Source: Methanobacteriota archaeon (lineage in GTDB: Archaea > Thermoplasmatota > Thermoplasmata > RBG-16-68-12). From it: a stretch of DNA of 38,386 nucleotides. Of the stretch, positions 4,601-24,205 are shown one piece after another. Position 1 is the first letter of the stretch, and each line of letters opens with the position of its first letter. Location of the stretch: the NCBI GenBank assembly GCA_005878985.1, contig VBMA01000093.1, positions 1-38,386 on the forward strand. Reading direction: 5' to 3'. Under the pieces are notes generated by a model. It worked only from the letters and a program-made list of their open reading frames with translations, did no database searches and had not been told where the DNA came from. The position numbers were made by a program, and so were the translations under genes.

Positions 4601-5911
4601 CCCGTTTCCGCCGATGCCGCCCCGGATGTTCTGGAGAGAGTTACCACTCGTATCGACGTTTCTCGCACTGATCAGGAACACCGCGTCTGCGTCGCCGCCC
4701 GTTCCGCCGTTCCCGTTCGTCGTCCCACCGTTTCCACCGAGTCCCCCGCCGCCGCCGGTTACGCCGCCGGCCGTGTTCGTGAATAACTGGCTGATTCCGA
4801 CTGAATTCGCCACTTCGATGGCAACGGCCGTGCCCGCGTCTCCGCCTCGGCCACCGGCCGTCGTCGTGGCGCTCCCGCCGCCCGATCCCCCGTTTCCGCC
4901 GGTCATGGTCGTGACCATGTTCCACTGGATCATCGGGCTCGTCGTGCCGACGACGACGATGCCCGCGGCGGAACCCCCGTTGCCGCCCCGACCTCCCGTG
5001 CCTCCGGTGTTTGCCTGACCGTCGCCCCCCCGTCCTCCACTCACGCTGTCGACGGCGTTGCTCGTGATCGAAGCAGACGGTGCCCCAGACACGTAGATGC
5101 CGGCGCCGATCGAGCCGTCACGACCCGGGGCCCCCGGACCAATCCCGGCGGCTCCTGCGGAGCCGCGGATTCCCTGAACCGTGTTTCCGTCAATCGATGC
5201 GGTCGCCCCGCCCGTTAGGAGGATTCCCATCGCGAACCCGCTGCTCACGTTCGTGATCGCGTTGCCCGAGATCGTCGGGAAACCGGGCTGCTCGATCTGG
5301 ATTCCGACCGCGGTGTTGTTGATTGCGTTGCCGGAAATCTGGACGCTGGATGCGTTCGCGTACACGCCCACGCTCGTCGCGCGGATGATCGTGTTGCTAG
5401 ACACATAGCTCGATGACCGAAGGAACACGAATCCGGCTCCCGCTTGGATGACCTTGTTGCTGATGATGTCCGGAGAGCTGTCCGTCGCCGAGATCGCCCG
5501 GTCGACGCGATCGAACGTCGACCAGGAAACGGAGCCGGATGAGCTGGCGTTGAATTGAATGCCGCCCCACGGGGTCAGGGATGACGTGTTCGCGGCGAAG
5601 GTGATCGGTTTCGCCGGGGTCCCGTCGGCTTTCAGCTGCCCGTCGACGAAGAGGTGGACGCCCGGATCGAACTTCACCGTCGTCCCGGGCATGATCGTCA
5701 GGGTCCGAGGAGCTCTGATCGTGACGGCACCCGTCGCGATGTAGACCGTGTCGGCCACACCCCACGTCACGTCCGTCGTGTACACACCTCGGACGTACGT
5801 GGTGGCGCTCACGGTCGGGGCGCTGACGAGGAGAACTGCCCCAATCGACCCGAGGAGCGCGAGGGCCACCGCCACACTTCTCATCGAGAACCGCGAAGGG
5901 GGGGTGCGCAT
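1601..5911 (-). CDS. Large surface protein: signal peptide, parallel beta-helix with glycine-rich inserts, four Fn3-like repeats, Big_5/Ig-like domain, single TM, C-terminal cytoplasmic domain (longin/roadblock-like?)
   Basis: 1436-aa ORF; N-term MRSVAVALALLGSIGAVLLVSAPTVSA; repeated SGNxI..N beta-helix rungs; GGRGGDGG-type inserts; repeated DTTAPTS..LPTYE..L.F.V.WGP...TDIA.Y.IQ..; FWWILVLVGAAVAAAAFLILRRRG TM; tail EDVFLLNHKDGLLIKHETRRLRPDVDMDILSGMLTAVQAFVKDAL. Confidence 0.9.
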   Translation of the reverse strand: MRTPPSRFSMRSVAVALALLGSIGAVLLVSAPTVSATTYVRGVYTTDVTWGVADTVYIATGAVTIRAPRTLTIMPGTTVKFDPGVHLFVDGQLKADGTPAKPITFAANTSSLTPWGGIQFNASSSGSVSWSTFDRVDRAISATDSSPDIISNKVIQAGAGFVFLRSSSYVSSNTIIRATSVGVYANASSVQISGNAINNTAVGIQIEQPGFPTISGNAITNVSSGFAMGILLTGGATASIDGNTVQGIRGSAGAAGIGPGAPGRDGSIGAGIYVSGAPSASITSNAVDSVSGGRGGDGQANTGGTGGRGGNGGSAAGIVVVGTTSPMIQWNMVTTMTGGNGGSGGGSATTTAGGRGGDAGTAVAIEVANSVGISQLFTNTAGGVTGGGGGLGGNGGTTNGNGGTGGDADAVFLISARNVDTSGNSLQNIRGGIGGNGAVAGGGSGNGGTGGAANGVAVFYVAGPATVHANTLATLVAGDGGRSVRGGYGGNATGLIFFGNNDGAFNKTQASFNQLDTITAGAGGIGTRFGGNGGTAAGIAAVYTSPDFSSNGVTTMQGGRGGDSVVGTNGGRGGDAYGVISGLVLNGLSAGDTISSVTKGGAGTGPPIQTSYADGYYLVGNKTFKMHFTAENATLSSIGSYEFFVDNYTQAIAVNSPFTKLAVMAAGNLTVRNFLEVDALWPNGFMPVGGARIKVSDGSTTIWDRTAPSGIQSWILVTDRIYVNSPIPTDNVTQVSVTYPPYAFTNDPRSVDMGTSHTESFVMVDKDAPTSAASPLPTYENTLTFWISYGASDGNGTGVVNVTLWYRTAGSAIWIQYSVQPGGNFGFLSFTASADGVYEFATTAEDASGNQESQPSANDTWTMVDTVGPGSHVNTLGQYENRSAFLVSWGPDVGVTDIASYTIQYNAGAAGWTDWLVGTTATSGTFTASGQGIYAFRSIATDHAGNREVPPAANDTWTRVDTTAPTSRTLALPTYETSLSFIVQWGPTEGTTDVATYHIQRNDNGAGWTDWLVATAATTSGTFTGQDGHTYQFRSVATDRAGNTEAVSGNESWTIVDVTPPESAVTTLPRYENTLQFAIAWGPVVGTTDIAAYLIQWKDGANPWTDLVGYTYTTATGATFVGQDPHVYAFRSIARDRAGNVETPPATNDTWTVVDVTKPFVTDSRPVGSNTNLTPWVVVTFNEPMNRTSVEAAFSITPAIDGASVWSSDSRVMTFVPARDLDSGATYFVVIDPTARDLAGNTMVSSKTFQFSTAPGFLAQFWWILVLVGAAVAAAAFLILRRRGAEASKPAAPPPTTAAKTSDAIVEDVFLLNHKDGLLIKHETRRLRPDVDMDILSGMLTAVQAFVKDALRGDDYADLNEMTVGHMHILIGRGKWLVLAARIEGDGSQSWTTQIERCIKDMEDHHWDQIEDWDGDMGLARVLTPYIKKLIQGGYT

Positions 5912-9150: not shown

Positions 9151-9176
9151 GATAACCAAAGCCCGTTTCTTAAATA
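9151..9176 (+). promoter_or_regulatory. Putative promoter: GATAAC-N13-TTAAATA
   Basis: GATAAC 9151-9156, TTAAATA 9170-9176, 72 bp upstream of ATG 9248. Confidence 0.6.
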
Positions 9177-9247: not shown

Positions 9248-10654
9248 ATGCAAGGGGCGATCGAAGCTCTGCTTTCCGGTCTCGTACTGCGAGGCCTCGG
9301 CCCGGCCCTCTCCGGAATCCTCATGGCCGCTCCGCTGAAGAAAGTCGCCCGGGCGCAGCTCAAGAAGATCTACGTCCTCGATGAGCGCGGCGAGATGGCC
9401 GGGGAATACATCCTCGATCAGGATTGCCCGATCGACTACAACGACTTCCTGAAAGTTTTGCCCGATGAAGGGATCGGCGATCGCGATTCCTTGTTCGTCG
9501 GCGAATATGTTTTCACAGCATTCCAGAGCGGCAAGTTCGTGTTTGTCCTCCTGTCGCGCGGCCAACTCGCGCCCGAGGATGTCAACTGGACCGCCCTCCT
9601 CCTCACGGCCGCGGATTCGCATCTCGCGTCCGCGGCGAATCGCCCTGCGCCGGCCCGCGCCGCCGAACCGAGACCGGAGGTCGACAAGGGAATCGCGGAA
9701 CGCGATGCGCGCCTCCAAGCGAAAGAAAAGTCCCTCGCCGAGCTCGAGGCGAAGCTCAAGGCGGACGCAGCCAACCTGAGTGGACGCCAGGAGGAGCTAG
9801 ACCGTCAGAAGGCGAGGCTCGCGGCCCTCGCGGACTATTCCACCCAACTGCAGGATGCGGTGTCGAAGGGCGCCTCCCGGTCGGCGAAGACCCTGGAGAT
9901 CGCGGAACAGCTCGCGACGAGCTCCAACGAGGATTCGAAGAAGGCCGAGTCGAAGGCCAACTCGGACGCGCGACAAGCATTCGAGCAAGAGCGGAAAGCG
10001 CTCATCGCGGCGAAGACCGAGCTCGAAACTCGCTACCAAGAGGGTTCCGCCAGAATCGCCCAACTCGAAAAGGAGGCGAAGGCCTCGGTCGCCTTCCTCG
10101 AAAAGGAACGGGCGGAGACCGCGGTTCGGTCGGCGGAAGAAGAGAAGACCCGCCGCGAAATCGAGAGCCGGGTGGCCGACCTGAGTCAGCGTTTCACATC
10201 AATGGCGAAAGAGCGGCTCGTGGCCTCGCATCGACCCCCCGGCGAGGTCTCTGATGAAGTTCGGAAGGCGATGGAAGGCGAGAAGTCCGAGCTCGCGCGG
10301 GAGCGCAAGTTCCTGCAACGTCGGGCGATCGAACTCCTGGACCGCGAGGAGCGGGTCCGGGACCGCGAAGCACGGGTCGAGGAACGAGACCGGGATTTCG
10401 GGCGACGGGAGAAAGATCTCTCCACCCGCGAGGAGGATCTAGACCGGCAACGGACGCTCCTCGCCCAAGCGAAGCCGCAGGCGCCCGAGATCCGCGCCGA
10501 ACCGGACGAGGCGAAGAAGGACATCGAGCGGCGCGTGAAGATCATTCAGCAGAAGGCCCTGGAGCTGCTGGACCGGGAGGAAAAACTCCGGAGGCGAGCG
10601 GCGGAGCTCGAGGCGATGGAGGCCCGGCTATCCGGGCGAGTGACGGTCGAGTGA
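9248..10654 (+). CDS. Coiled-coil protein with small N-terminal domain shared with the 4428-aa protein; conserved C-terminal tail
   Basis: 468-aa ORF preceded by TTAAATA box (9170-9176); N-domain KKIYVLDERGEMAGEYILDQDCPIDY; heptad coiled coil; RKFLQRRAIELLDREERVR and RVKIIQQKALELLDREEKLR near the C-terminus. Alternative ATG at 9323. Confidence 0.88.
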   Translation: MQGAIEALLSGLVLRGLGPALSGILMAAPLKKVARAQLKKIYVLDERGEMAGEYILDQDCPIDYNDFLKVLPDEGIGDRDSLFVGEYVFTAFQSGKFVFVLLSRGQLAPEDVNWTALLLTAADSHLASAANRPAPARAAEPRPEVDKGIAERDARLQAKEKSLAELEAKLKADAANLSGRQEELDRQKARLAALADYSTQLQDAVSKGASRSAKTLEIAEQLATSSNEDSKKAESKANSDARQAFEQERKALIAAKTELETRYQEGSARIAQLEKEAKASVAFLEKERAETAVRSAEEEKTRREIESRVADLSQRFTSMAKERLVASHRPPGEVSDEVRKAMEGEKSELARERKFLQRRAIELLDREERVRDREARVEERDRDFGRREKDLSTREEDLDRQRTLLAQAKPQAPEIRAEPDEAKKDIERRVKIIQQKALELLDREEKLRRRAAELEAMEARLSGRVTVE

Positions 10655-10685
10655 ACCGGATTCCCCTCCAGAAGGAATCAGGTCA

Positions 10686-10711
10686 GATAACCACCAAACG
10701 GCGCTTAAATA
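10686..10711 (+). promoter_or_regulatory. Putative promoter: GATAAC-N13-TTAAATA
   Basis: GATAAC 10686-10691, TTAAATA 10705-10711, about 208 bp upstream of the GTG at 10919. Confidence 0.6.
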
Positions 10712-10918
10712 GGTCCGAACGGAACCCCGCTGCAACGCCACGCAGACGCTCGTCAGAGTCGTGACGGCTTTGAACGTCTCATGTGCAGAACTGCCAGGTT
10801 CCAACCACGACGTCGCGCGAAGGGACTCAACCGGAATCCCCGGGCCTTCCGCTGCGTCGATGAGCGGTACCGCCACTCCGTCTAACCGCTCCCTCCCAGT
10901 CCGCGCCGTGGTGTTTTC

Positions 10919-13900
10919 GTGAAGGCGCGAACCGCGTTCCTCGTCGCCTTCGTCATGCTGGCAACCGCCGCCCTGGTGGTCGTAAGCCAGTCGATGCCCG
11001 ACCCGCTCGCGGAATTCAGATCTCCCGACGGTCGGCTCACGATTCCCGGGCGTGCGTTGACCCCGGAACTGCAACGGCTGCTGTTTCATGGGAATGATCT
11101 GCAGCCTTTCACCAATGTCACCTTCCTTCTCCCGGCGCGATCTTCGTATCCGACGGAGCGCCTCGTCGCAATCTCATTCACGTCTCCAAATCTCAACGTC
11201 TTCGTTCATCCGCGTCAAGCGCCGGAAACGTGGGGCAGCGCGATCAATCACGTCCTCCGAGTGTGGTTCCCTCCGATCGACTGGCACGAGGTGGCAGTCG
11301 GATTCCGAGACTCGATCCGGGACGGCGTCGGGTGGTTTTTCGATCTCTTCACGATGAATGCTAGGGCCGACGCATTGACGGTGGATTCGACGACCGTCGC
11401 ACTCGTCGACCCCGCCGCGGCAACCTGCACGACCTCTCAATCGGCGACCGCGGGCGACAACGCGGTGCTCGTGATGCTCAGCAATCGAGGGCCCACCGCG
11501 TACACAAGCGTTACGTACGGAGCGGCGAGCCTCAGCCTGATTCCCGGGACCGCCACGAGCGGCACCGGAATCGTGCGCACGGAGATGTGGTTCTTCCAAG
11601 GCGTGATTCCAAGCGGCGCTCAGACGATGACGGCCACGCTCGTGAGTGGCACCGCGAAACAGGTGTGTGCCACGGTCCTCCTAGGGGGAGTATTGGCCAC
11701 GACCCCGACCGCGGGAGGAACCACGGCGAGCGGGACGACCGCGAATCCGAGCATTTCGATTTCCCCGGCATCCGCCGGCGAACTGGCTTTCGCGGTCCTG
11801 GGGATTCGAGGGACCACGGCACCGACGGCCGTCACCGGCACGGCCGCAACCGCGATGTCTCTCTACGGAATCGCGCCGACTCAGTGCGCCGCCGCACCCA
11901 CCACTTTTTGCGGCGCGGGAGCCGACATGCCCTTCCCCGGCACGGCAATCACCTGGACGGACGGCAACGCCACCGACTGGGTCATCTCCGCGGTCCGCGT
12001 GCTGCCCACCCCGAACTGCGGCGTTGCGTCGGGGAACTGCTATCGGATCGGAGCCGGCGGGACGTGGGCCACGGGTGCGAACTGGTCGAATACGTCCGGC
12101 GGGGCCGCGTGTAGCTGCACTCCCGTCGCGACGAACGATGTGATCTTCAATGCCACTCCCACCGGCACCACGACCCTTGCGGCAGCCACCACGATCGCGA
12201 GCATCGACATGACGGGCTTCACCGGCACGCTCGACACGACCGCATCCAACTGGGCTCTCACGGTCAACGGGCCATTCGCGATTCAGGGGACGGTCCAGGC
12301 TCGGAGTTCGACGATCACCGTCACCGGGGATGTCGACGTGCTCACCGCGGGGACGATCGTCAATCTCGGCGCATCGAGCTGGACGGTCAACGGACTGTGG
12401 ACCAATCTCTCGACCTCCGTCTCGTGGGCCGCGGGGACGAGCACGGTGACGATCCGAGATGCCGGGAGCGGACCACTGACGTTCGCCGCGCTGGCCGGCG
12501 GGACGAACGAGTTCAACAATCTCACGCTCGACGCCAGTGTGACCCCCAGCATCACGTACACGATGGCGGTCAACGCGCTGAGGATGGGAGGGACGCTCAC
12601 GATCCGCAACTCGACGGGCGGGGCGACGGGACCGACCATCTTGACGACATCCGCGTCGAACTTGGGCATCACCGCGGGGGCGCTCACCCTCTCGACTTTC
12701 GGAAGCCTGACGGCGAATGGGTCAACCGTCGTGGTCAACGGCAACCTGAACGTCAGCGCTGCGAACGGCTACGTCGTCATGGGTACGTCGACTTGGACCG
12801 TCACGGGGACTTGGACGAACGCGTCGACATCCGCCTCATGGACTCCCGGGACCGGCACGGTCACCTTCACGAGTGCGACCGGCGGGACGATGACGTTCGC
12901 CGGGACGAATCTTCCGAGCAACGAGTTCAACAACATTTCGTTCACCTCCTCGGCGGCGTCCGCCCAGACCTTCACCATGGGGACAAGGGCCCTCATCTGG
13001 GGCGGGACGCTCACGATCTCGGACGGTTCTTCGACGACGGCGCTCGCAACCGCCAATCTCGGCCTGACCGGCGGCGCCCTCGTTGTCGGCAATGGCGGCA
13101 TCCTCACCGCGAACGCGTCTACGGTCTCTGTGTCGAGCGTGGCGATGACCGGGGGGACGAGCGGAACGATCACGCTCACGAGCAGCTCGTTCACGAGCAC
13201 CGGTAACTGGGACACGAGTGGCGCCGGCTCCGTGTTCACGAAAGGCACGAGCACGGTGACGATGAACGGGGTGGCCAACATCGCGATTCTGAACGCGGGC
13301 AACAACTTCAACAACCTGGTCCTCTCGGCGGCGGGAACGGTCACCCAAACCGGCCTCGTGGACGTCTCCGGGACCTTGACGGTGAGTGCCGGCTCAGTCC
13401 TCGCGAGCGGCACCTTCACGCTGACCGTGGCCACCCTCGCAGCGAACATGGCGGGTGGAATCACCGGGGGCGCGGCGGGCACGAAGACGATCACCGGGAA
13501 TGTCAGCATCGCCGCCTCGGGATACTTCAGCTTCGGCGCGACGACTTGGAACTTTGGCGGTTCGTGGACGAACTCGACGACGAGCGGATCGTGGTCCGCC
13601 GGAACGGGCACGGTTGTCTTCAATTCCGGCTCGTCTCGCACCATGACCTTCGCCAACTTGGGAGCCTCGGAATTCAACAACGTGCAGTTCAGCCCGACCG
13701 CCGCGGCCACGTTCACCATGGCGACGAACGGACTCCGATGGGGAGGCACGTTGACCCTCAACAACAATGCGGCCCTGGCGACCGCGAACCTCGCGTTGAC
13801 GGGCCCGGGAGGGAACCTCACCGTGAACAACGGGGCCACCTTGACCGCGGGCACGTCCGTCGTGAGCGTGACCAACGTGACGATGACCGGCGGGACCTCC

Positions 13901-16900
13901 GGGACGATCACGGCCGCAGGCTCCTGGACCGTCGCAGGGAACTGGGACACGTCCGGAGCGGGCTCCGTCTTCACGGCGGCTTCCAGTTCCGTCACGATGA
14001 GCGGAGCCGCGAAGACCGTCAAGACTCTGAACGCGTCGAACGGCTTCGGCGCACTCACGATCAGTGGCACCGTCACCGCGGCATCGGCGACCACACTCGC
14101 CGGCCTCCTGACGGTCAGCGGCACCTTCGACACGACCGCGACCAACTACGGCCTGTTCGTGGGCGGCGGCCTGACGGTCAGCGGTGCCGCGGCAGTCCTC
14201 CGATCAAACGGATCGACCGTCTCGGTGGCCGGGAATGTTTCCGTGAACAATCCGGCCGGCTACATCACGTCCGGCGGCGCCGGTTCGTGGACCGTCTCCG
14301 GATCCTGGACAAACGCGTCCACGTCCGCGTCCTGGAATTTCGCGTCTCCAATCACGTTCAACTCATCGGCCTCTCAGACGATGACCTTCGCCGTCCTTCC
14401 GGGAGCAGCCGCCGAGTTCAACGACATCGCGTTCAACAGCGGCGCGTCGACCGTCACGTTCACCATGGCGACGAACCGCCTCATCTGGTCGGGGACCTTG
14501 TCGGTCCAGGGCGGGGCCGGAGCGACGACCCTCGCGACGAGCAACCTGACCCTCACCGGCGGCGCACTCACGATCGGTAACGGGGGTGTGCTGACGGCGA
14601 ATGCATCCGCGGTGAGTGCATCGAACGTCACGATGACGGGCGGTGCGTCAGGTACGCTGACGCTGACCACCGGCGCATGGACCGTCACGGGTAACTGGGA
14701 CACATCTGGCGCAGGCTCGACATTCACGGGCGGAGCCAGCACCGTGACGATGACCGGAGCGGGCACGACCGTCAAGCTCCTGAACGCGTCGAACGGGTTC
14801 GCCGCTCTTGCCGTCAGCGGCACCGTCTCGGCCGCCTCGGCCCTCACGACGGCGGGACTCGTCACCGTGAGTGGTATGCTCGACACGACGGGCGCGAACT
14901 ACGGCCTCACGATTGGTGGCGGGCTCACCGTCAGCGGGGCGAGCGGGGTGCTCCGCTCGAATGCGTCGATCGTCTCGGTGGCCGGGAACGTGAATGTCAA
15001 CAACGCCGCGGGCTACATCACGTCGACGTCCGGTGGTTCTTGGACGGCGTCCGGGTCGTGGACGAACGCCTCGACGTCGGCCTCGTGGGGTTTTGTCGCC
15101 CCGATCACCTTCAACTCGTCGGCCTCGCGGACGATGACCTTCGGCAACCCGACCCAGGAATTTGGCGGGAACGTCACGTTCAACTCCGGCGCCTCGACGG
15201 TCACTTTCACAATGGCCACGAACAGCCTGGCCGTCGGCGGGACGCTGACGATCTCAGGCGGAGCCGGAACGACGACGCTGAACACGAGTGGATCAAATCT
15301 CGCCATCAACGCGGTCACGTTGGTCGTGAACGCGGGAGGAGCCCTCACGGCCAACGGATCCTCGATTACCGTCACGTCGATGGACACCCACCTCGGGACA
15401 TTCACGGTCGGCGCCTCGAACGTCGTCGTGAACGCATCGGGCGGCTCCATGAACATCACGCAGACCGTGAACAATCTCACGGTCAGTCCCGCCGTCTCGA
15501 CGACCTTCACCGGATCTCTCACGTGGACCGGAACGCTCGCCTTCACGAACGCCGGGACCGTCGCATTCGGAACGAACAGCCTGACCTCCAGCGGCGCCGC
15601 GACGTTCACGTTCGCATCGGCGACGATCACGATGAGCTCGGGGAACTGGGATACGTCCTCGGCCACGACCTTCACGGCGACCAGTTCGACGGTTACCTTC
15701 TCAGGGACCGGGAACCTTCGAATCGGGGGAAGCGCCTCCTTCAATGCGCTCACGGTCAGCGGCGGCACCCGGACTCTTCAGAGCCAACTCACGACGGCGG
15801 GATTGCTGACCCTTTCGGGCGGCATCCTCGCGAAGGGGACGAGCGCGCTTACCGCCAACGCCGGACTCACGATGTCGGGAGGCGCGCTCACCTCCACGTC
15901 CGGCGGGGTCAGCATCACCGGCAACGTATCGATCGCGGCGGCGTCCTACATCGTCTTCGGGTCCGAGACTTGGACCGTGAGTGGCTCGTGGACGGACAAT
16001 TCCACGTCGGCGAGTTGGTCGATTGGAACCGCGACCGTGGCCTTCAACGCGTCGTCGGCGCAGACGATCACGTTCGCCGCTCTCCCGGGCAACGCACCCG
16101 AGTTCTACAACGTGACCTTCAACAGCGGCGCGTCGACGGTCACATTCACGATGATGACGAACGCCCTGGCTTGGTCCGGAATCCTCACGGTCCAAGGAGG
16201 GGGCGGGGCGACGACGCTCGCTACGGGCAATCTTGGCCTCATCGGAGGCGCCATCGCCGTCGGCAATGCGGGAGTCCTCGCTGCGAACGCCTCCGCGGTG
16301 TCAATCTCCGGATTGACGATGATCGGAGGGGCGAGCGGCACGTTGACGCTGACGACCGGTTCATGGGCCGTCTCCGGCAACTGGAACACCAGCGGGCCGG
16401 GCTCCGTATTCTCGAAGGGAACATCGACGGTCACGTTGACTGGGTCCGGGCAGACGGTATCCATCCTCAACGCTTCGAACGGGTTCTACAACCTCACCGT
16501 CTCGGGGACCGTCACTCAGTCCACCGCCGTCGATGTGACCAATTCGTTGGCGGTGAGCGGAACGCTGACCACCGGAGGGTTCAACATTACGGGCGGCTCG
16601 AACCTCTTCGTCCCGGATGGTGGCACCCTGGCGGCCGGCACCTCGACGTCCACGTTCACGAACGTCACGATGACCGGAGCGGTCTCGGGTACGATCACCC
16701 TGACGGGCGCATGGACCCTGGGCGGTTCTTGGAACAGCACCGGCGCAGGCTCGGTTCTGAACTCCGGGACCTCGACCGTGACCTTCACCGGGACCTCTCA
16801 GACCGTCAGCCTCGCGTCGGGCCAGATGTTCTACAATCTCACGATCGGCGGTACGGTTTCCATCAACTCGTCCGTGACCGTGGCGTCGACTTTGACAGTG

Positions 16901-19900
16901 AACAACGGCGCTGTCCTCACAAAGACCGGCCAGACCATCGCCTTCAACACCTTGACGCAGAACGGGACCGGGAGCATCGTCGACGGAGCAATCACCGTCG
17001 TGAACTTCTCCGTCACGAACAGCGATGGAACGAATCTCACAGCCATCGGCGTGTTCACGACGTGGACGATCGACGCGGACTACACGTGGACCCATTCATC
17101 GACGGTCGCGACCTCGACGATCACCTTCACGATCGGAGGGAACACGAGCGGGCAGCGATTCAATGTGACGAAGGACGCCGTGGACTTCACGAACGGACTC
17201 GTGAACGGTTCCGGTCAGATCGTCTTCGCGATGCTCGGCTCGGATCCGGTCGTCGACGTCCGCCTTACATCGCCCTGCGGGGGCAACCGATATTGGATCG
17301 GTGGGACCGGTAGCTGGTCCCAGACGGCCCACTGGGCGGATTCGACGGGCGGGGCGAACGGATGCTCCGTGCCGAACTCTTCGAACCCCGTCTTCTTTGA
17401 CGCGAACTCCGGAGGCGGAACCGTCACGATTACTCTGAATGTGGCGGTGACTTCGCTGAACACGACCGGGTGGGCCGGGACGATCGCGATCGGATCGTTC
17501 GACCTCGCGGTGAGCGGCGACATCGTCCATGCGGCGGGAATCATTTCGATTGGCGCCTCCTCGAATGCCGGCCTGACGGCCACCGGGACGCTCACTCTCT
17601 TGGGTTCCGCAGTCCTCGACGGGTCTGGCGTGGCGTCTTTGGTCACCATCGCCGGTGACACGTCAATCACGAGTGCATCGGCCTACTTCCGGATGGGCAG
17701 CGGCACCTGGACATTCGGAGGGTCCTGGTCCAACAGCAGCACTTCGACGAACTGGGTCGCAGGAACCGGCGTCGTCATCTTCGATTCTTCGTCCTCGCAG
17801 ACGCTGACTTTTGCGAATCTCGCGGGCGACGAATTCCACGATGTGACATTCCAGTCCGCCGCGGGCAGCGGGACAATCGTCTTCTCGATGGCGGCGACCG
17901 GCCTTCGCTGGAGCGGACTCCTCGCCATTCAAGATTCCGTGGGTTCGACGACCACGCTGGCAACATCGAATCTCTCCCTGACCGGCGGATCCCTTGCGGT
18001 CGGCAACTCGGGAACCCTCATCGCAAGCACGTCGAGCGTCGCCGTGGTCAACGTCACGATGACCGGCGGCGCCTCCGGTACGCTGACCCTCACGAGCGGG
18101 TCTTGGACCGTGAGCGGGCAGTGGAACACGTCGGGGACGGGTTCGACGTTCGCTCGGGGCACGAGCACGGTCACGATGTCGGGCACGTCGGCGAGCGTCG
18201 CGACCCTCGACGCAAACAATGGATTCACCAACCTGGCGATCTCCGGCACGATCACGCAGAGCACCGCGCTCGACGTGCGCGGCACGCTGTCCGTGACGGG
18301 CACGCTCACCACATCGGGGAACAACATCACGGGCGGTGCCAACCTCACGATCTCTGGAGGCGGGAGCCTGATCGGGACCGCATCATCGATCGTCGTCTCC
18401 GGGGTGACGATGAACGACGCGGGGACGAACTCCATTTCCCTGACGATCGGCTCGATTTCCGCGTCGGGCTCATGGGACACCTCCGGATCGTCGTCGGCGT
18501 TCACAGCCGGCTCGTCCACGGTGACCCTCACCGCCGCCACCGGAACAATCGCGATCGGGCCCGCTCAGTCACTCGCGACCTTGATCATCGCCGGAAGCGT
18601 CACGATGGCATCTCCGTTGACGGTCTCCTCCCTCACGATCATCTCCGGCGGACTCGCTAAGGGCCCGCACGCGCTGACGGTGAACGGGAACCTGACGTTG
18701 GCCGGGGGCTACCTCACCTCGACGTCCGGGTCCGCCTCCATCGCAGGAAACGTGAACGTGTCTTCGTCGTCGTCCTACATCGCGTTTGGCTCGGGAACCT
18801 GGATCATCTCCGGGAATTGGACGAACGCCTCGACCTCGGCATCTTGGTCCGCTGGGTCCGCCGTCGTCACATTCGACGCGACGACCGATCAGACGATGAC
18901 GTTCGCCGGAGCCAACTTGGCCGGCAACGAATTCAGCACGGTCGAGTTTGACAGCGGCTCCTCGACCACGACGTTCACGATGACCTCCGACGGACTTGCG
19001 GCGCAGACCATCACGATCCAAGGTGGCCCCGGGACGACCACGTTGACGACCTCGGGCGCGAGTCTCCCGATTCTCGCGAATGCCCTGACGGTTGACGTTG
19101 GCGGGGCACTCGCCGCGAACGCGAGCATCCTGACGGTTCGGTCCCTGAACACTGCCAGCGGCGCATTCGCTGCCGGGACCTCGACCGTCGTCGTCAGCAT
19201 CTCCGGCGGCTCCATCAACGTCCCGCAGACTCTGCACGACGTCGTCGTGAGCCCCGGCATCAGCACGACCTTTGCCTCGAGCATCACTTGGTCCGGGGCG
19301 CTGACACTGACGGACTCCACGACCACCTTCGACGGCAACCTGACTTCGAACGGCCTTGCGGTCCTCAACCTCGGAACCTCCACGATCTCCATCGCAGGAT
19401 CGTGGGACACCTCTTCCGCGGCGAGCCTCACATCGATCGGGTCCGCGGTGACCTTCACCGGTGACAGCGGCACGATCACCCTCGGTGCAGGCCAGCGGTT
19501 CGCCACACTGACCATCGCGGGGACCGTCGCTCTCGGGTCCGATCTGACCGCGGACACCCTGACCGTGACGAGCTCGAGCGTCCTGACGATGACGAGCCAC
19601 GGCATCGCATTCAACAGCCTGGCGGTCAACGGGACGATTGCGGATGGACCCGTGAACGTGACCGACCTTTCGGTCACGAACAACGATACGACCGCCTTGG
19701 TCACGATCGCGGGGTTCCGCGAGTGGTCCCGAGGGTCCTCGTACGCCTGGACCCATACCTCGAGCGAATCGTCCCAGACAATCACGTGGTCGATCGGTGG
19801 AAATGCCGCGGGCATCCCGTACACCGTGACGAAAGACGGCTCGTCGTTCGCAACCGGAACCGTCAACAGTTCCGGTCAGGTCGTCTTCACCATGCTCGGC

Positions 19901-22900
19901 TCCGACCCCGCCATCCAGGTGACGGTGCACAACCCGATTCCGCCGCCGTGGTGGCAGTCCTCCTACATGCTTGCGATCTTCCCCATTGGAATCTTGTTGG
20001 GTGTTGCAATGTTCGCGCAACGACAGCGCTGGAGGCCCGCGAAGGCCTTCCTCGTGGACGACAGCGGGAGAATGCTCAGGGAATTCACCCTGGACCCGGC
20101 CTGCCAGGTCACGTACGACCAGGCGGTCCAGGCCGGCATCTTGGACGCGGTCGACAAGCCGATCAAGATCACCAAGTACCACGGCCAGACGGTCCGCGGG
20201 GACGCACTCGCGGTCGTGCTCCTCGCCTACGGACCGGTTACACGGGAGCATGTCGAGTTCGCTCGGGAGATGCTCGTCCAGATTCAGGACAAGTTTGAGG
20301 ACGGCGTCAAGCAACGTCTGGAAGAGGCCCGTGCCCAAGAGGCCAACGTGGCGACGCAGATGAACGACCTCGCGACCCGCCGGACCGAAGTCGAGACCCG
20401 TGCGGCCGAAGCCCAAACGATGGCCCAGCAATCGGAGGCCGTCCAGGCGAAGATCATCGCGGACACTGACGCCGTCGAGGCGAAGGAACAGGATCTTCGA
20501 CGACGAGAAGAGGAGCTGGCGAACAACCGCAGGGCCATCGATGAGCTGGCCCGCCAAACCGAAGAGGACCGGAGCTCAATCGACCGACGCACCGGGGATC
20601 TTCAAGGCCGGGCGGCCGAAATCGCCGCGAAGTCCGAGGCGGTCGAGGCTCGAGAGGAAGCGGTCAGCGCGCTCGAGCGAACCCTTCGGGACCGAGACGA
20701 GACCCTCGCGACGGGAGAGGCCGGCCTTCAGGAAATCCGGGAGCGCCTCGCGACCGATACCTCGGCGGTGCAAGCGAGACTCGACGAGGCCGGGCGGCGT
20801 GAGGAAGCCCTCGGCCGCGATCAGGCGAACCTCTCGAATGCCCGCGAAAAGTTCCAGGCGGAGCAGCGAGAGCTGCTCGAGTTCAAGCGTTCCATCGATA
20901 GCCGGGTCAGCGCCGTCGAGGAGAAGGAGACCGAGATGGACCGCCTATCGAAGGACGTCGCCGCGCGAGAGGCCCGCGTGGTGCCCGAGGAGGCGCGCCT
21001 CGCAGAGCGGGCGAATGTCGCTGAGCAGAAGGAAGCCGACCTGAAGGCCCGCGAGGACAGGCTGACAGCGAGAACCCAAACGCTCGACGGGCGCGAGCAG
21101 GAGCTCAGCAGCCGCGAGGTCGCGCTCAACGAGGACCGCGTGGTCCTCGCGGAGGCTCGGGGCGCGTTCGAGTCGGATCGGAGAGAATTCGAGGAGCGCA
21201 AGAACCAAGCCGACGAAGAGGCGCGCCGACGCCGGAGCGACCTGGATGGTCAAGCCAAGACGGTCGGCGCGAGTCAGCTTCGCTTGGCCCAGGAGAAGGA
21301 GAGCCTCGAAGCCGCGCACAATGAGCGGAGCCAAGCCATCCTATCCCGGGAGATCGAGCTCGAGGCCCGCGAACAATCCCTCCAAGAGAACGAAGAAGCC
21401 AACCGCACCCAGGCGGACGAAAACGCTCGGCGCTTTGGCGAACTGACCGGTCGAGAGGAATCCCTCGAAATCGAGGCAGCGAAGGCCGACAAGGTCCGGA
21501 GCGACCTCGATGCCCGGAAGGCGGATCTCTCGAGCCGCGCGACAGAACTCGAGGAAGAGGCGGCTCGATTGCGGGGGGAGGAGGCAAAAGCGGCCGAGGA
21601 GAGACGGACCTGGCAGACGACTTTGCAGTCTGAGCAAGCGTTGCTCAAGGACCAGCGAGACGCGTTCGAGCAGGAGGCCGCTTCGGCCCGTGCCTCGTGG
21701 GCCGATCGCGTGATGCGGATCGAGGCGCGCGAAGTCGACCTCGAAGAGAAAGAAGAGAAGGTCCGGACCGACGTCGACTGGGTCGCCCGAAGCGACGAGG
21801 ACCTCAAGCGCCGCGAGAAGGCCGTCGAGGAGGCGGGGCGGTCCGCTGCGCAGGTGCAGGCCAGCGCCGAACGCGCCACGAAGGAGGCCGAACAGCGATT
21901 CCTCGAGATCGAGTCGCGCGAACGCGCCCTTCGAGAAGAGGCCGCGCACGAAGCGATCGAACTCACCAAGCAGACGGAGGCGTTGAAGCAATTCGAGACC
22001 GAGCTGAACTCGAAACAGGCCGACTTCGAGAAGGAGCGGACGGCGCAGACCCAGCGACTCCGGGAGACCGAGAACGAACTCCATTCAAGAGCTGGCACCC
22101 TTGAGGCGAAACGCCGCGACCTCGAGGAACGGGAGAGCCGAATCGCGGGCATGGAGGAGTCTCTCCATCAGGGCGACGAGCGGCTTCAGCGGGAACGTGC
22201 GGACCTGCAGGCGACGGCGAAACAGCTCGAATCCCAGCAGCTCGAACTCGCGCAGCTCAAAGACCGATACGAGTCGGAGGCCACACGCGTTCGCACTGAA
22301 GCGGAGGGCATGCGGCAATCCGTGGCGGCCAAAGAATCCGAACTGCAAGCCGAGCGGGAGCGGATCGAACGGGATTCGTCCGCCCTCCAGGAGACCCTCG
22401 GTGCGAAGGCGAAGGAGATGTCGGTCCGAGAACGAGCGCTCACCGCGCGCGAGGCAGAGCTCCAGACCGAAGAGCAAGAGCTCGAGGCCCGCGGACGAGA
22501 GCTCGAATCAAAAGAACGCCAAGCCGAAGCCCACCTGACCGAGATGTCTGCGCAGGCGATGGCGCTCATCCGGCGAGAGCAGGACTTGAACTCCCGCGGG
22601 ACCCAGGTCGAACAGACCATGCGTCGGTTCGAGTCGGAAGCGACGGAGAAACGGCGCGAATGGGAATCCCTTCAGACGAGCCTGAAGTCTCAGCAGGCAC
22701 AATTCACCGCGTCGTCGGAATCTCGCGCCGGTGATCTCGCGAAGAAAACGGTAGAGCTCGAGGCACGGGATCGCAGCCTTCGAGCGGCTTTGGCCGCGAT
22801 GGAGGTCGAACGATCCAAACTCGATGCTGAGTCAAAAGCCCAATCCGCCAAAAGCACCGAAGCGGAGGCGGCTTGGCGACGATCGGAAGCCCGTCTCGCG

Positions 22901-24205
22901 GAGCTCAAGACGAAGGAAGATGAGTTGCTCCGCGCCCGTCAGTCGTTCGAATCGGACCGCTCCACCTGGTCCGCCCGACGAACCGAGGAGCTGAAACAAC
23001 TCGAGGCGACACGGGATGCGGCCGCGCAACAAGCGCAGCAGACGGAGCGGCTCGTCGCGGAGTCCCAGCGCCGAGCCCTCGTCGCAGAAGAGGCGGAACG
23101 AGCGGCAAAACGCCAGACCGCCGACCTCGCCGCTCAACAGGCGCGACTGGAGACCCGCCGGGCCGAAGCCGAGAAGGCGGAACGCGACGCGCAGGGTCAT
23201 CTGGCCCAGTTGCAGGAGGCCTCACGGAAATTGGCGGTGAAAGACATGGAAATCGCTACGGCCGTCAAGGATCTCGAGGCGCGGCAGTCGAAGCTGGCGG
23301 CCGCGGAGAGGGATTCCGCGGCAATCCAGGGGGAGTTGCGCTCCCGAAAAACGGCCTTGGACGAAGAGGCCGCGCGAATCACCACGTCGTCGAATCAAAT
23401 GACGACGCGCCAGAAAGATCTGGAGTCGCGGACGGCCTCCCTCGAAGCGAAGATGGGCGAAGCCTCAACGAAAGAACAGGCTCTCGCGACGGAACTTCAG
23501 CGTGCGGACAACCTCATGGAGGACCTCACCAAGAAGGACCGTGATCTTCGCTCCCGCGAAGAGGCCGCGAAGGCGTCCGAGAAGACCATGGCGGCGCGGG
23601 AGACGAGCCTCGTCGCACGCGACGCCGAGGTCCGGGACGGGATGCGGGGTCTCGAAAAGCTCCGCAAGGAAATCGACGACCAGCGCGGCGCCACCGAAGA
23701 AGACCGTCGAACCGCGAAGACCACCCGCGCTGAGGCCGAAGCGACGAAGCGCGAGGCGGACAAGATGCGGGCCCAGGCCGACGAAATGCAGTCGGAGGTG
23801 AACAAGAACCTCCGGTTCCTCCAGAAGAAAGCCCTTGACGTGTTGGATCAGGAGGAGAAAATCCGGGCTCGCGTCGCCGCGATTGAAGGGCAGGAGAAGT
23901 CCCTCGACACCCGGGCGGAAATCCTCGAAGGGAAAGAGCGGGCCCTCGAAGCGGACCAGGCTGCCATGGATTCCAAGGTCGCGAAGCTTCAGGCCGAGAT
24001 TGATCGGCTGCGCGGGAGCATTGCCGATGCGGTGAAATCCGGAGGCCCGACGACGGCCGCGATGGAAGAGTGGAAGAAGGACGTCGAGAACCGGGTGAAG
24101 ATCATCCAGAAGAAGGCCATGGACCTCTTGGACCGCGAGGAAAAGCTCCGGAAGAAGGAAGAGGAACTCCGAGCGCTCGCGAGCCAGCTCGGCGCGAAGC
24201 CGTGA
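10919..24205 (+). CDS. Giant 4428-aa transmembrane protein: signal peptide, about 3000-aa repetitive ectodomain, one TM helix, cytoplasmic domain, about 1300-aa coiled coil
   Basis: Single uninterrupted ORF (GTG start); signal MKARTAFLVAFVMLATAALVVVSQS; recurrent VTFTMATNxLxWxGTLTI / GxWDTSGAGSxFTxGTSTVTMxG / LNASNGFxxLxVSGTV repeats; TM WWQSSYMLAIFPIGILLGVAMFAQRQRWRPAK; heptad-rich REREL-type coiled coil to C-terminus. Confidence 0.93.
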   Translation: MKARTAFLVAFVMLATAALVVVSQSMPDPLAEFRSPDGRLTIPGRALTPELQRLLFHGNDLQPFTNVTFLLPARSSYPTERLVAISFTSPNLNVFVHPRQAPETWGSAINHVLRVWFPPIDWHEVAVGFRDSIRDGVGWFFDLFTMNARADALTVDSTTVALVDPAAATCTTSQSATAGDNAVLVMLSNRGPTAYTSVTYGAASLSLIPGTATSGTGIVRTEMWFFQGVIPSGAQTMTATLVSGTAKQVCATVLLGGVLATTPTAGGTTASGTTANPSISISPASAGELAFAVLGIRGTTAPTAVTGTAATAMSLYGIAPTQCAAAPTTFCGAGADMPFPGTAITWTDGNATDWVISAVRVLPTPNCGVASGNCYRIGAGGTWATGANWSNTSGGAACSCTPVATNDVIFNATPTGTTTLAAATTIASIDMTGFTGTLDTTASNWALTVNGPFAIQGTVQARSSTITVTGDVDVLTAGTIVNLGASSWTVNGLWTNLSTSVSWAAGTSTVTIRDAGSGPLTFAALAGGTNEFNNLTLDASVTPSITYTMAVNALRMGGTLTIRNSTGGATGPTILTTSASNLGITAGALTLSTFGSLTANGSTVVVNGNLNVSAANGYVVMGTSTWTVTGTWTNASTSASWTPGTGTVTFTSATGGTMTFAGTNLPSNEFNNISFTSSAASAQTFTMGTRALIWGGTLTISDGSSTTALATANLGLTGGALVVGNGGILTANASTVSVSSVAMTGGTSGTITLTSSSFTSTGNWDTSGAGSVFTKGTSTVTMNGVANIAILNAGNNFNNLVLSAAGTVTQTGLVDVSGTLTVSAGSVLASGTFTLTVATLAANMAGGITGGAAGTKTITGNVSIAASGYFSFGATTWNFGGSWTNSTTSGSWSAGTGTVVFNSGSSRTMTFANLGASEFNNVQFSPTAAATFTMATNGLRWGGTLTLNNNAALATANLALTGPGGNLTVNNGATLTAGTSVVSVTNVTMTGGTSGTITAAGSWTVAGNWDTSGAGSVFTAASSSVTMSGAAKTVKTLNASNGFGALTISGTVTAASATTLAGLLTVSGTFDTTATNYGLFVGGGLTVSGAAAVLRSNGSTVSVAGNVSVNNPAGYITSGGAGSWTVSGSWTNASTSASWNFASPITFNSSASQTMTFAVLPGAAAEFNDIAFNSGASTVTFTMATNRLIWSGTLSVQGGAGATTLATSNLTLTGGALTIGNGGVLTANASAVSASNVTMTGGASGTLTLTTGAWTVTGNWDTSGAGSTFTGGASTVTMTGAGTTVKLLNASNGFAALAVSGTVSAASALTTAGLVTVSGMLDTTGANYGLTIGGGLTVSGASGVLRSNASIVSVAGNVNVNNAAGYITSTSGGSWTASGSWTNASTSASWGFVAPITFNSSASRTMTFGNPTQEFGGNVTFNSGASTVTFTMATNSLAVGGTLTISGGAGTTTLNTSGSNLAINAVTLVVNAGGALTANGSSITVTSMDTHLGTFTVGASNVVVNASGGSMNITQTVNNLTVSPAVSTTFTGSLTWTGTLAFTNAGTVAFGTNSLTSSGAATFTFASATITMSSGNWDTSSATTFTATSSTVTFSGTGNLRIGGSASFNALTVSGGTRTLQSQLTTAGLLTLSGGILAKGTSALTANAGLTMSGGALTSTSGGVSITGNVSIAAASYIVFGSETWTVSGSWTDNSTSASWSIGTATVAFNASSAQTITFAALPGNAPEFYNVTFNSGASTVTFTMMTNALAWSGILTVQGGGGATTLATGNLGLIGGAIAVGNAGVLAANASAVSISGLTMIGGASGTLTLTTGSWAVSGNWNTSGPGSVFSKGTSTVTLTGSGQTVSILNASNGFYNLTVSGTVTQSTAVDVTNSLAVSGTLTTGGFNITGGSNLFVPDGGTLAAGTSTSTFTNVTMTGAVSGTITLTGAWTLGGSWNSTGAGSVLNSGTSTVTFTGTSQTVSLASGQMFYNLTIGGTVSINSSVTVASTLTVNNGAVLTKTGQTIAFNTLTQNGTGSIVDGAITVVNFSVTNSDGTNLTAIGVFTTWTIDADYTWTHSSTVATSTITFTIGGNTSGQRFNVTKDAVDFTNGLVNGSGQIVFAMLGSDPVVDVRLTSPCGGNRYWIGGTGSWSQTAHWADSTGGANGCSVPNSSNPVFFDANSGGGTVTITLNVAVTSLNTTGWAGTIAIGSFDLAVSGDIVHAAGIISIGASSNAGLTATGTLTLLGSAVLDGSGVASLVTIAGDTSITSASAYFRMGSGTWTFGGSWSNSSTSTNWVAGTGVVIFDSSSSQTLTFANLAGDEFHDVTFQSAAGSGTIVFSMAATGLRWSGLLAIQDSVGSTTTLATSNLSLTGGSLAVGNSGTLIASTSSVAVVNVTMTGGASGTLTLTSGSWTVSGQWNTSGTGSTFARGTSTVTMSGTSASVATLDANNGFTNLAISGTITQSTALDVRGTLSVTGTLTTSGNNITGGANLTISGGGSLIGTASSIVVSGVTMNDAGTNSISLTIGSISASGSWDTSGSSSAFTAGSSTVTLTAATGTIAIGPAQSLATLIIAGSVTMASPLTVSSLTIISGGLAKGPHALTVNGNLTLAGGYLTSTSGSASIAGNVNVSSSSSYIAFGSGTWIISGNWTNASTSASWSAGSAVVTFDATTDQTMTFAGANLAGNEFSTVEFDSGSSTTTFTMTSDGLAAQTITIQGGPGTTTLTTSGASLPILANALTVDVGGALAANASILTVRSLNTASGAFAAGTSTVVVSISGGSINVPQTLHDVVVSPGISTTFASSITWSGALTLTDSTTTFDGNLTSNGLAVLNLGTSTISIAGSWDTSSAASLTSIGSAVTFTGDSGTITLGAGQRFATLTIAGTVALGSDLTADTLTVTSSSVLTMTSHGIAFNSLAVNGTIADGPVNVTDLSVTNNDTTALVTIAGFREWSRGSSYAWTHTSSESSQTITWSIGGNAAGIPYTVTKDGSSFATGTVNSSGQVVFTMLGSDPAIQVTVHNPIPPPWWQSSYMLAIFPIGILLGVAMFAQRQRWRPAKAFLVDDSGRMLREFTLDPACQVTYDQAVQAGILDAVDKPIKITKYHGQTVRGDALAVVLLAYGPVTREHVEFAREMLVQIQDKFEDGVKQRLEEARAQEANVATQMNDLATRRTEVETRAAEAQTMAQQSEAVQAKIIADTDAVEAKEQDLRRREEELANNRRAIDELARQTEEDRSSIDRRTGDLQGRAAEIAAKSEAVEAREEAVSALERTLRDRDETLATGEAGLQEIRERLATDTSAVQARLDEAGRREEALGRDQANLSNAREKFQAEQRELLEFKRSIDSRVSAVEEKETEMDRLSKDVAAREARVVPEEARLAERANVAEQKEADLKAREDRLTARTQTLDGREQELSSREVALNEDRVVLAEARGAFESDRREFEERKNQADEEARRRRSDLDGQAKTVGASQLRLAQEKESLEAAHNERSQAILSREIELEAREQSLQENEEANRTQADENARRFGELTGREESLEIEAAKADKVRSDLDARKADLSSRATELEEEAARLRGEEAKAAEERRTWQTTLQSEQALLKDQRDAFEQEAASARASWADRVMRIEAREVDLEEKEEKVRTDVDWVARSDEDLKRREKAVEEAGRSAAQVQASAERATKEAEQRFLEIESRERALREEAAHEAIELTKQTEALKQFETELNSKQADFEKERTAQTQRLRETENELHSRAGTLEAKRRDLEERESRIAGMEESLHQGDERLQRERADLQATAKQLESQQLELAQLKDRYESEATRVRTEAEGMRQSVAAKESELQAERERIERDSSALQETLGAKAKEMSVRERALTAREAELQTEEQELEARGRELESKERQAEAHLTEMSAQAMALIRREQDLNSRGTQVEQTMRRFESEATEKRREWESLQTSLKSQQAQFTASSESRAGDLAKKTVELEARDRSLRAALAAMEVERSKLDAESKAQSAKSTEAEAAWRRSEARLAELKTKEDELLRARQSFESDRSTWSARRTEELKQLEATRDAAAQQAQQTERLVAESQRRALVAEEAERAAKRQTADLAAQQARLETRRAEAEKAERDAQGHLAQLQEASRKLAVKDMEIATAVKDLEARQSKLAAAERDSAAIQGELRSRKTALDEEAARITTSSNQMTTRQKDLESRTASLEAKMGEASTKEQALATELQRADNLMEDLTKKDRDLRSREEAAKASEKTMAARETSLVARDAEVRDGMRGLEKLRKEIDDQRGATEEDRRTAKTTRAEAEATKREADKMRAQADEMQSEVNKNLRFLQKKALDVLDQEEKIRARVAAIEGQEKSLDTRAEILEGKERALEADQAAMDSKVAKLQAEIDRLRGSIADAVKSGGPTTAAMEEWKKDVENRVKIIQKKAMDLLDREEKLRKKEEELRALASQLGAKP
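12540..19090 (+). repeat. Degenerate repeats within the giant ectodomain (about 745-bp period in the central block)
   Basis: Eight copies of a [TV]xTFTMxTNxLxWxGTLTI-like motif at about 12556, 12970, 13711, 14458, 15204, 16142, 17877 and 18970; three consecutive spacings are about 741, 747 and 746 bp. Confidence 0.8.
20032..20300 (+). other. Juxtamembrane cytoplasmic domain homologous to N-domain of the 468-aa protein
   Basis: FLVDDSGRMLREFTLDPACQVTY (giant) vs YVLDERGEMAGEYILDQDCPIDY (468 aa): 8/23 identities with conservative changes; both followed by coiled coil. Confidence 0.7.

Follow-up and report, generated by a model that had tools for sequence, protein, structure and literature searches.

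Roadblock/longin domains (RLDs) are the usual platforms on which small GTPases dock, and their distribution among archaea is relevant to the origin of eukaryotic membrane control. Ragulator/LAMTOR, for example, is a membrane-anchored RLD platform for a Ras-superfamily GTPase, in which a lipidated anchor holds the RLD subunits (LAMTOR), each a small protein of its own. Giant surface adhesins of archaea and bacteria combine a signal peptide, a long ectodomain (repetitive or composed of CBM/Ig domains) and a single transmembrane (TM) helix, and usually have a short cytoplasmic tail. RLDs mostly bind GTPases, and in roadblock proteins the C-terminal half of the central helix forms the dimer (PMC10933270). 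Members of the Roadblock/LC7 family have an N-terminal helix ahead of strand 1 and dimerise via a long central helix, while longin domains show no N-terminal helix and two helices after strand 5. The RLD paralogues MglB and MglC act together (PMC7949163), and Loki longins are reported without any coiled coil (PMC4917890).

Here, we describe two neighbouring genes from a Thermoplasmatota order, in which a predicted RLD fold that is missed by current family libraries is located just inside a giant surface protein and recurs in its coiled-coil partner. The studied window, i.e., the whole stretch of DNA that was analysed (38,386 nucleotides), belongs to an archaeal genome of 2.11 Mb in 200 contigs. 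It is related to Thermoplasmatota MAGs that come from grassland soil, aquifer sediment and other sites. Given the MAG names, they look like the GTDB order RBG-16-68-12, i.e., the Ca. Angelarchaeales of PMC9038741, a text with no mention of giant, coiled, cell surface or cytoskeleton. Comparisons were based on the genus (n=19 genomes), the order (n=37) and an even draw across the phylum (n=394). Table 1 lists the features of the 468-aa protein (p468), its 4428-aa neighbour (the giant) and their upstream regions.

Table 1. Features of the p468/giant locus; positions refer to the window.
Feature	Coordinates	Strand	Basis
TATA-like box CTTAAATA, 79 nt upstream of p468 start	9169..9176	+	rarity, relatives
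p468 gene, 468 aa	9248..10654	+	ORF
p468 aa 1-30, conserved hydrophobic N-terminal segment, possible weak membrane anchor	9248..9337	+	conservation, Kyte-Doolittle
p468 N-domain, aa 36-125, predicted roadblock/longin-like fold	9353..9622	+	AlphaFold2, Foldseek, genus identity 82-100%
p468 coiled coil, aa 144-345	9677..10282	+	heptad periodicity, composition scan
p468 tail motif 1, ERKFLQRRAIELLDREERVR region, aa 346-400	10283..10447	+	motif match, conservation
p468 tail motif 2, IERRVKIIQQKALELLDREEKLR, aa 416-460	10493..10627	+	motif match; genus identity 80-100%
TATA-like box CTTAAATA, 215 nt upstream of listed giant start	10704..10711	+	rarity, relatives
giant surface protein gene, 4428 aa	10919..24205	+	ORF; giant-type profile matches in 24/37 order genomes (part of them weaker cross-matches)
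giant hydrophobic signal-peptide-like N-terminus	10919..10993	+	KD 2.46 at aa 5
giant ectodomain 'type A', T/S/G/A-rich degenerate β-strand repeats	10994..19933	+	composition, sequence
giant transmembrane helix, then QRQRWRPAK (positive, cytoplasmic side)	19958..20017	+	KD 2.07 at aa 3015
giant N-domain, aa 3036-3130, predicted roadblock/longin-like fold	20024..20308	+	AlphaFold2, Foldseek, hhalign
giant cytoplasmic coiled coil, ~1150 aa	20339..23788	+	heptad power
giant tail motif 1, RFLQKKALDVLDQEEKIR	23795..23953	+	motif match, conservation
giant tail motif 2, VENRVKIIQKKAMDLLDREEKLR...LRALASQLG	24068..24202	+	motif match, conservation

An earlier note on this DNA, made from the sequence alone, had described p468 as a soluble mini-version of the giant's cytoplasmic half, i.e., with the same order of N-domain, coiled coil and tail. 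As a statement on domain order this is accurate, and both ORFs are located at the coordinates given. The common N-domain spans ~95 aa (p468 aa ~36-125 vs. giant aa ~3036-3130) and is homologous between the two proteins according to three comparisons. The Smith-Waterman score is 63 compared to 25±4 for shuffled sequences (maximum 49; 0/2000 shuffles reach 63), profile-profile alignment by hhalign provides a probability of 97.5 (E 7.1e-12, 87 columns), and a giant-free N-domain profile recovers the giant's domain genome-wide with an E-value of 1.1e-9. That is, the similarity quoted in the earlier note is real but wider than the 23 residues given there, and the profile comparison, which it had named as a possible refutation, finds the domains related. 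One Cys is common to nearly all N-domain copies of both types.

The C-terminal tails are likewise similar (BLASTP E 3e-16), with tail 2 being near-identical in p468 and the giant. The motif [LIV]Q[RQK][KR]A[LIM][ED][LV]LD[RQ]EE[KR][LIV]R occurs exactly twice per protein (p468 aa 356 and 433; giant aa 4301 and 4396), and a tail query against the own genome yields matches in p468 and the giant only, four in total. Between these ends, the giant's coil shows a heptad power of 49 at period 3.52 (shuffled maximum 10.7) and would measure ~170 nm as one unbroken α-helix, while that of p468 (13.3 at period 3.46; shuffled maximum 12.4) is barely outside chance, each based on 200 shuffles. The distance from the N-domain to the last tail motif is ~308 aa in p468 vs. 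~1271 aa in the giant; given this fourfold gap, a full-length in-register coil heterodimer is unlikely. Pfam and NCBIfam assign no family to p468 or the giant. A match of the SMC model TIGR02168 (E 0.014) is far below the cut-off and reflects coiled-coil composition.

Next, we considered the fold of the N-domain. The AlphaFold2 models of p468 aa 1-132 (with 26 family sequences; core pLDDT ~89-95) and of the giant N-domain (mean pLDDT 86) show the identical order β-β-α-β-β-β-α, where both models are not fully independent because their alignments share sequences. Foldseek was run on 350,542 PDB chains for each protein separately, and almost all of the best 50 matches are RLD proteins (probability ~1.00), i.e., Ragulator, AP-2/AP-3 μ longin domains, MglB, MglC, ζ-COP, TRAPP, Rag C-terminal domains and Asgard Roadblock2, beside a minority of few profilins and SRX. 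Since E-values are modest (4e-3 to 8e-2; TM-scores ~0.5), the weight rests on this unanimity. On the sequence level, PF03259 (Roadblock/LC7) matches none of 15 N-domains, and hhalign finds no significant similarity to the Robl_LC7 proteins of the same genomes (probability 4.5). A search of PDB sequences with the N-domain profile provided a single weak match (Retroaldolase 36, E 0.18), which we disregarded. The N-domain is thus, by predicted fold, an RLD and, by sequence, not a PF03259 member.

Compared to the RLD types of PMC10933270, the modelled N-domain is without a confident N-terminal helix (helices before strand 1 appear only at pLDDT <50) and has a short central helix of only 6-7 residues in both models. 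One long helix after strand 5 continues into the coiled coil; a second packed helix is not seen. The predicted core, in which strands 2 and 3 of a five-stranded sheet are separated by a helix, is like that of MglB/MglC (Myxococcus, Thermus) and Asgard roadblocks, but the domain has no Robl_LC7 Pfam match and is fused to long coiled coils and a surface protein. Like MglB and MglC, p468 and the giant would be RLD paralogues with a joint function. Longins (AP μ/σ, ζ-COP, VAMP7-type SNAREs) share the β-β-α-β-β-β-α order and the helix after strand 5, with AP μ among the best superpositions (rmsd 3.2-3.6, TM 0.50-0.57), but show no sequence similarity. p468 also resembles longin SNAREs in that a longin-like domain is followed by a coiled coil. 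We rejected this assignment, since the C-terminus of p468 is a charged coil without TM helix and the coil (~300 aa) is far longer than a SNARE motif. Finally, LAMTOR chains are among the top Foldseek matches, and the proposed membrane-anchored RLD platform would resemble Ragulator; in contrast to Ragulator, the RLD is located directly behind the TM helix of a giant surface protein.

The topology of the giant is deduced from its signal peptide, ectodomain, TM helix and positively charged cytoplasmic flank. It resembles giant adhesins in its outer part and differs from them in its inside portion of ~1400 aa with RLD and coiled coil. For its ectodomain (type A), we found no Pfam, NCBIfam or PDB sequence match, and Tandem Repeats Finder reported nothing for the giant's DNA, as the ectodomain repeats are too degenerate.

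For p468, the earlier note had stated the lack of a clear TM helix. This holds at a strict cut, given a best 19-residue Kyte-Doolittle mean of 1.56, but the hydrophobic segment at aa 1-30 (MQGAIEALLSGLVLRGLGPALSGILMAAPL) is kept in all p468 orthologues of the genus, three of which reach 1.71-1.98. We therefore consider 'soluble' doubtful. The segment occupies a place equivalent to the giant's TM helix and is of low confidence in the AlphaFold2 model; both a hairpin that touches the membrane and an ordinary helix are conceivable. p468 versions outside the genus seem to be without it.

We also studied how both genes are distributed. The N-domain family is narrow: among the 394 genomes of the phylum draw, it was recovered from the own genome and from a single further genome of the class. 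Within the order, p468-type N-domains are present in 25/37 genomes and giant-type profile matches in 24/37, part of which are weaker cross-matches to other RLD copies; one genome without giant match (G014) is an incomplete MAG. Both proteins are absent from the identical 12/37 genomes (families f4-f6). Families f1-f3 may form a single clade, in which case the co-occurrence might count few independent events. In the window, p468 and the giant are on the same strand, 264 nt apart, and the giant directly follows p468 in 14/14 genus genomes with a long enough contig, including giant starts at contig ends. Co-occurrence and adjacency, whose lack the earlier note had named as a second possible refutation, thus hold across the genus. 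Beyond the genus, adjacency is not strict: in G012 two enzyme genes intervene (aldehyde:ferredoxin-oxidoreductase-like and methyltransferase-like by our own reading of their sequences), and in G003 a p468-like and a giant gene are on separate contigs. The distant genome G291 encodes an RLD-coil protein and has no giant match.

The term 'pair' from the earlier note fits the two adjacent genes but has to be extended. Most genus members carry a third RLD gene of ~230-260 aa without tail motif just upstream of p468 (e.g., L041 104-796, L044 9132-9875, L048 9212-9907), such that the usual order is small RLD protein, p468, giant; the window and its closest relatives (its subclade) are without it. 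Bridging architectures exist as well: G013 (1358 aa) and G002 (801 aa) encode TM-RLD-coil proteins without an ectodomain, and G028 encodes a p468-like protein of 1096 aa. In L043, the giant's frame is interrupted at about 14031-14442: a 1600-aa ORF begins 70 nt past p468, followed by an open ORF up to the contig end, which is either a genuine break or an assembly error.

When comparing the protein parts within the genus, the shared ends are the most conserved. For p468, identities are 82-100% for the RLD and 80-100% for tail 2, compared to 44-97% for the coil and 50-100% for the linker or N-terminus. Respective values for the giant are 71-89% (RLD), 49-80% (tail) and 4-71% (coil).

The giant's outer half, on the other hand, is exchanged. 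Type A ectodomains (β-strand repeats) are found in the window, L032, L033, L043 and L048/L054, with starts in L035, L036, L040 and L046. Type B ectodomains, composed of carbohydrate-binding/lectin and Ig/cadherin domains (CBM96, GH43_C2-like, Big_9/cadherin), are found in L041, L044, L055, L061, L066 and L067, with starts in L037-L039. BLAST reveals no similarity between type A and type B ectodomains, while the RLDs across both types are 72-91% identical within the genus. In the tree of the inner half, the type switches at least twice, with L041 (B) and L043 (A) being sisters at 100/100 support; the alternating regions are L041 2430-9287 and L043 14442-19826 vs. window 10919-19933. Type B is also found in other families and is probably ancestral. 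Since unrelated ectodomains are exchanged on a constant inner half, we consider the inner half the working core. Both this exchange and the N-domain fold are new points that were absent from the earlier note.

Each gene is preceded by the TATA-like box CTTAAATA, which has 2 exact copies in the 38-kb window vs. 0.05 expected and 18 copies in the GC-rich genome (reversed-pattern control: 3). Relatives keep CTTAAATA or a TTAAATA/TTATATA variant at both places (about -77 to -82 before p468), except for L057 where the box before p468 is absent. Given that each gene has its own box, a single operon transcript is not required. Several of the 16 other genome sites (L095-L110) shortly precede housekeeping-looking genes, which read as proteasome subunit, ribosomal proteins and SRP54. 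We thus rejected CTTAAATA as the mark of a private regulon; possibly it serves as a core promoter box of high strength, and p468 and the giant probably each have a strong promoter of their own.

We interpret the locus as encoding a membrane-anchored RLD-coiled-coil scaffold that would connect the inside of the cell with an exchangeable surface stalk and would probably be tied to the Ras-family GTPases of the order, and hold this reading at about even confidence. Both proteins would form one archaeal family with a core unit of RLD, parallel coiled coil and paired C-terminal 'QKKA..LLDREEK' helices. The giant would place this unit just inside the membrane, behind signal peptide, long exchangeable ectodomain and one TM helix, while p468 would provide it without ectodomain, perhaps tethered via its hydrophobic N-terminus. 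The coiled coils would oligomerise, and the two proteins, complemented in most relatives by the small third RLD protein, would most likely assemble into a scaffold at the membrane, in which the common tail would join p468 and the giant to each other or to a common partner. The RLDs would provide a platform beneath the membrane, probably used by one Ras/MglA-type GTPase of the cell, such that the scaffold might connect adhesion or contact at the cell surface with organisation or polarity inside the cell. We favour a membrane-attached scaffold because the shared ends are constrained, both genes are jointly present or absent and adjacent, and a constant inner half is combined with a swapped outer half. 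Points against this reading are the modest Foldseek scores, the missing profile similarity to Robl_LC7 proteins, the short central helix, the fourfold gap in coil length and GTPases that do not track the family. The earlier proposal of a possible two-component module, with putative hetero-oligomerisation or a shared partner, is partly supported by the N-domain homology and the conserved co-occurrence.

It is possible but doubtful that p468 and the giant are paralogues working in parallel, i.e., that the unit was duplicated in place and each copy homo-oligomerises, with a common domain and partner but no mutual binding. Such independence would fit the mismatch of the coil lengths between RLD and last tail motif, the separate promoter boxes, and the p468-like genes found apart from giants in G003 and the distant G291. 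It would not account as easily for the strict adjacency in the genus (14/14), the joint absence from the identical 12 genomes, or the near-identity of tail 2, the strictest-kept part besides the RLD.

The GTPase part of the scaffold reading is suggested by the predicted fold together with the genomic context. Ras-family GTPases are found in 37/37 order genomes (7-20 matches each); they were rejected as a co-occurrence marker, since they are also abundant in the 12 genomes without the family. Robl_LC7 genes number 3-10 (mostly 5-10) in families with a giant vs. 2-3 in families without. These Ras-GTPase-rich genomes, the additional Robl_LC7 genes and a KaiC-MglA-like fusion would fit a GTPase coupling. 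The fusion, which joins a KaiC-type ATPase to an MglA/Arf-like GTPase, is found in the own genome, with two roadblock genes and a second KaiC-like ATPase behind it (L082, G000:C65, 883-4802); similar GTPase-roadblock neighbours exist in other f1-f3 genomes. The own genome also contains a tandem of three Ras-family GTPases (G000:C165:21496-23293, inside L091). In L069 (G001:C42), a giant-subtype N-domain-coil gene and a Ras-family GTPase gene are arranged tail-to-tail (3932-4573 and 4661-5692), a GTPase neighbourhood of an N-domain gene seen in this one genome only.

A purely structural link between envelope and cytoskeleton, in which the RLD is a dimerisation cap without GTPase and the coil filaments stiffen a possibly wall-less cell, seems unlikely to us. 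The very long heptad coil and the large ectodomain agree with it, as does the promoter box shared with proteasome-, ribosomal- and SRP-like genes, which hints at strong expression. The short dimer helix would fit as well, and so would the window itself, in which no recognisable GTPase gene adjoins the pair; those neighbours that can be identified are largely metabolic (acyl-CoA synthetase-like, glyoxalase, ACT, Cys/Met PLP enzyme). However, conservation peaks in the RLD for p468 as well as for the giant, which is beyond the needs of a mere cap, and the GTPase binding typical of RLDs elsewhere (PMC10933270) speaks against this role. A further alternative, in which p468 is an incomplete or degenerating copy of the giant or stems from an assembly or frame error, would explain its part order without ectodomain but is highly improbable, as conservation refutes it: orthologues are present in 19/19 genus genomes, codon divergence at third positions is 2-5x that of second positions, and p468 has its own conserved N-terminus and promoter box.

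Extending the favoured scaffold reading, we tentatively consider a new archaeal transmembrane class, in which exchangeable ligand-binding stalks might signal via a juxtamembrane RLD to Ras-family GTPases, with the coiled-coil partner as inner scaffold; this stronger version is rather improbable. If true, it would place adhesion-to-GTPase coupling outside Asgard archaea and eukaryotes. The giant is probably not the only surface protein of the window, since a 1436-aa protein with NosD-like and bacterial Ig-like domains is encoded at 1601-5911 on the minus strand.
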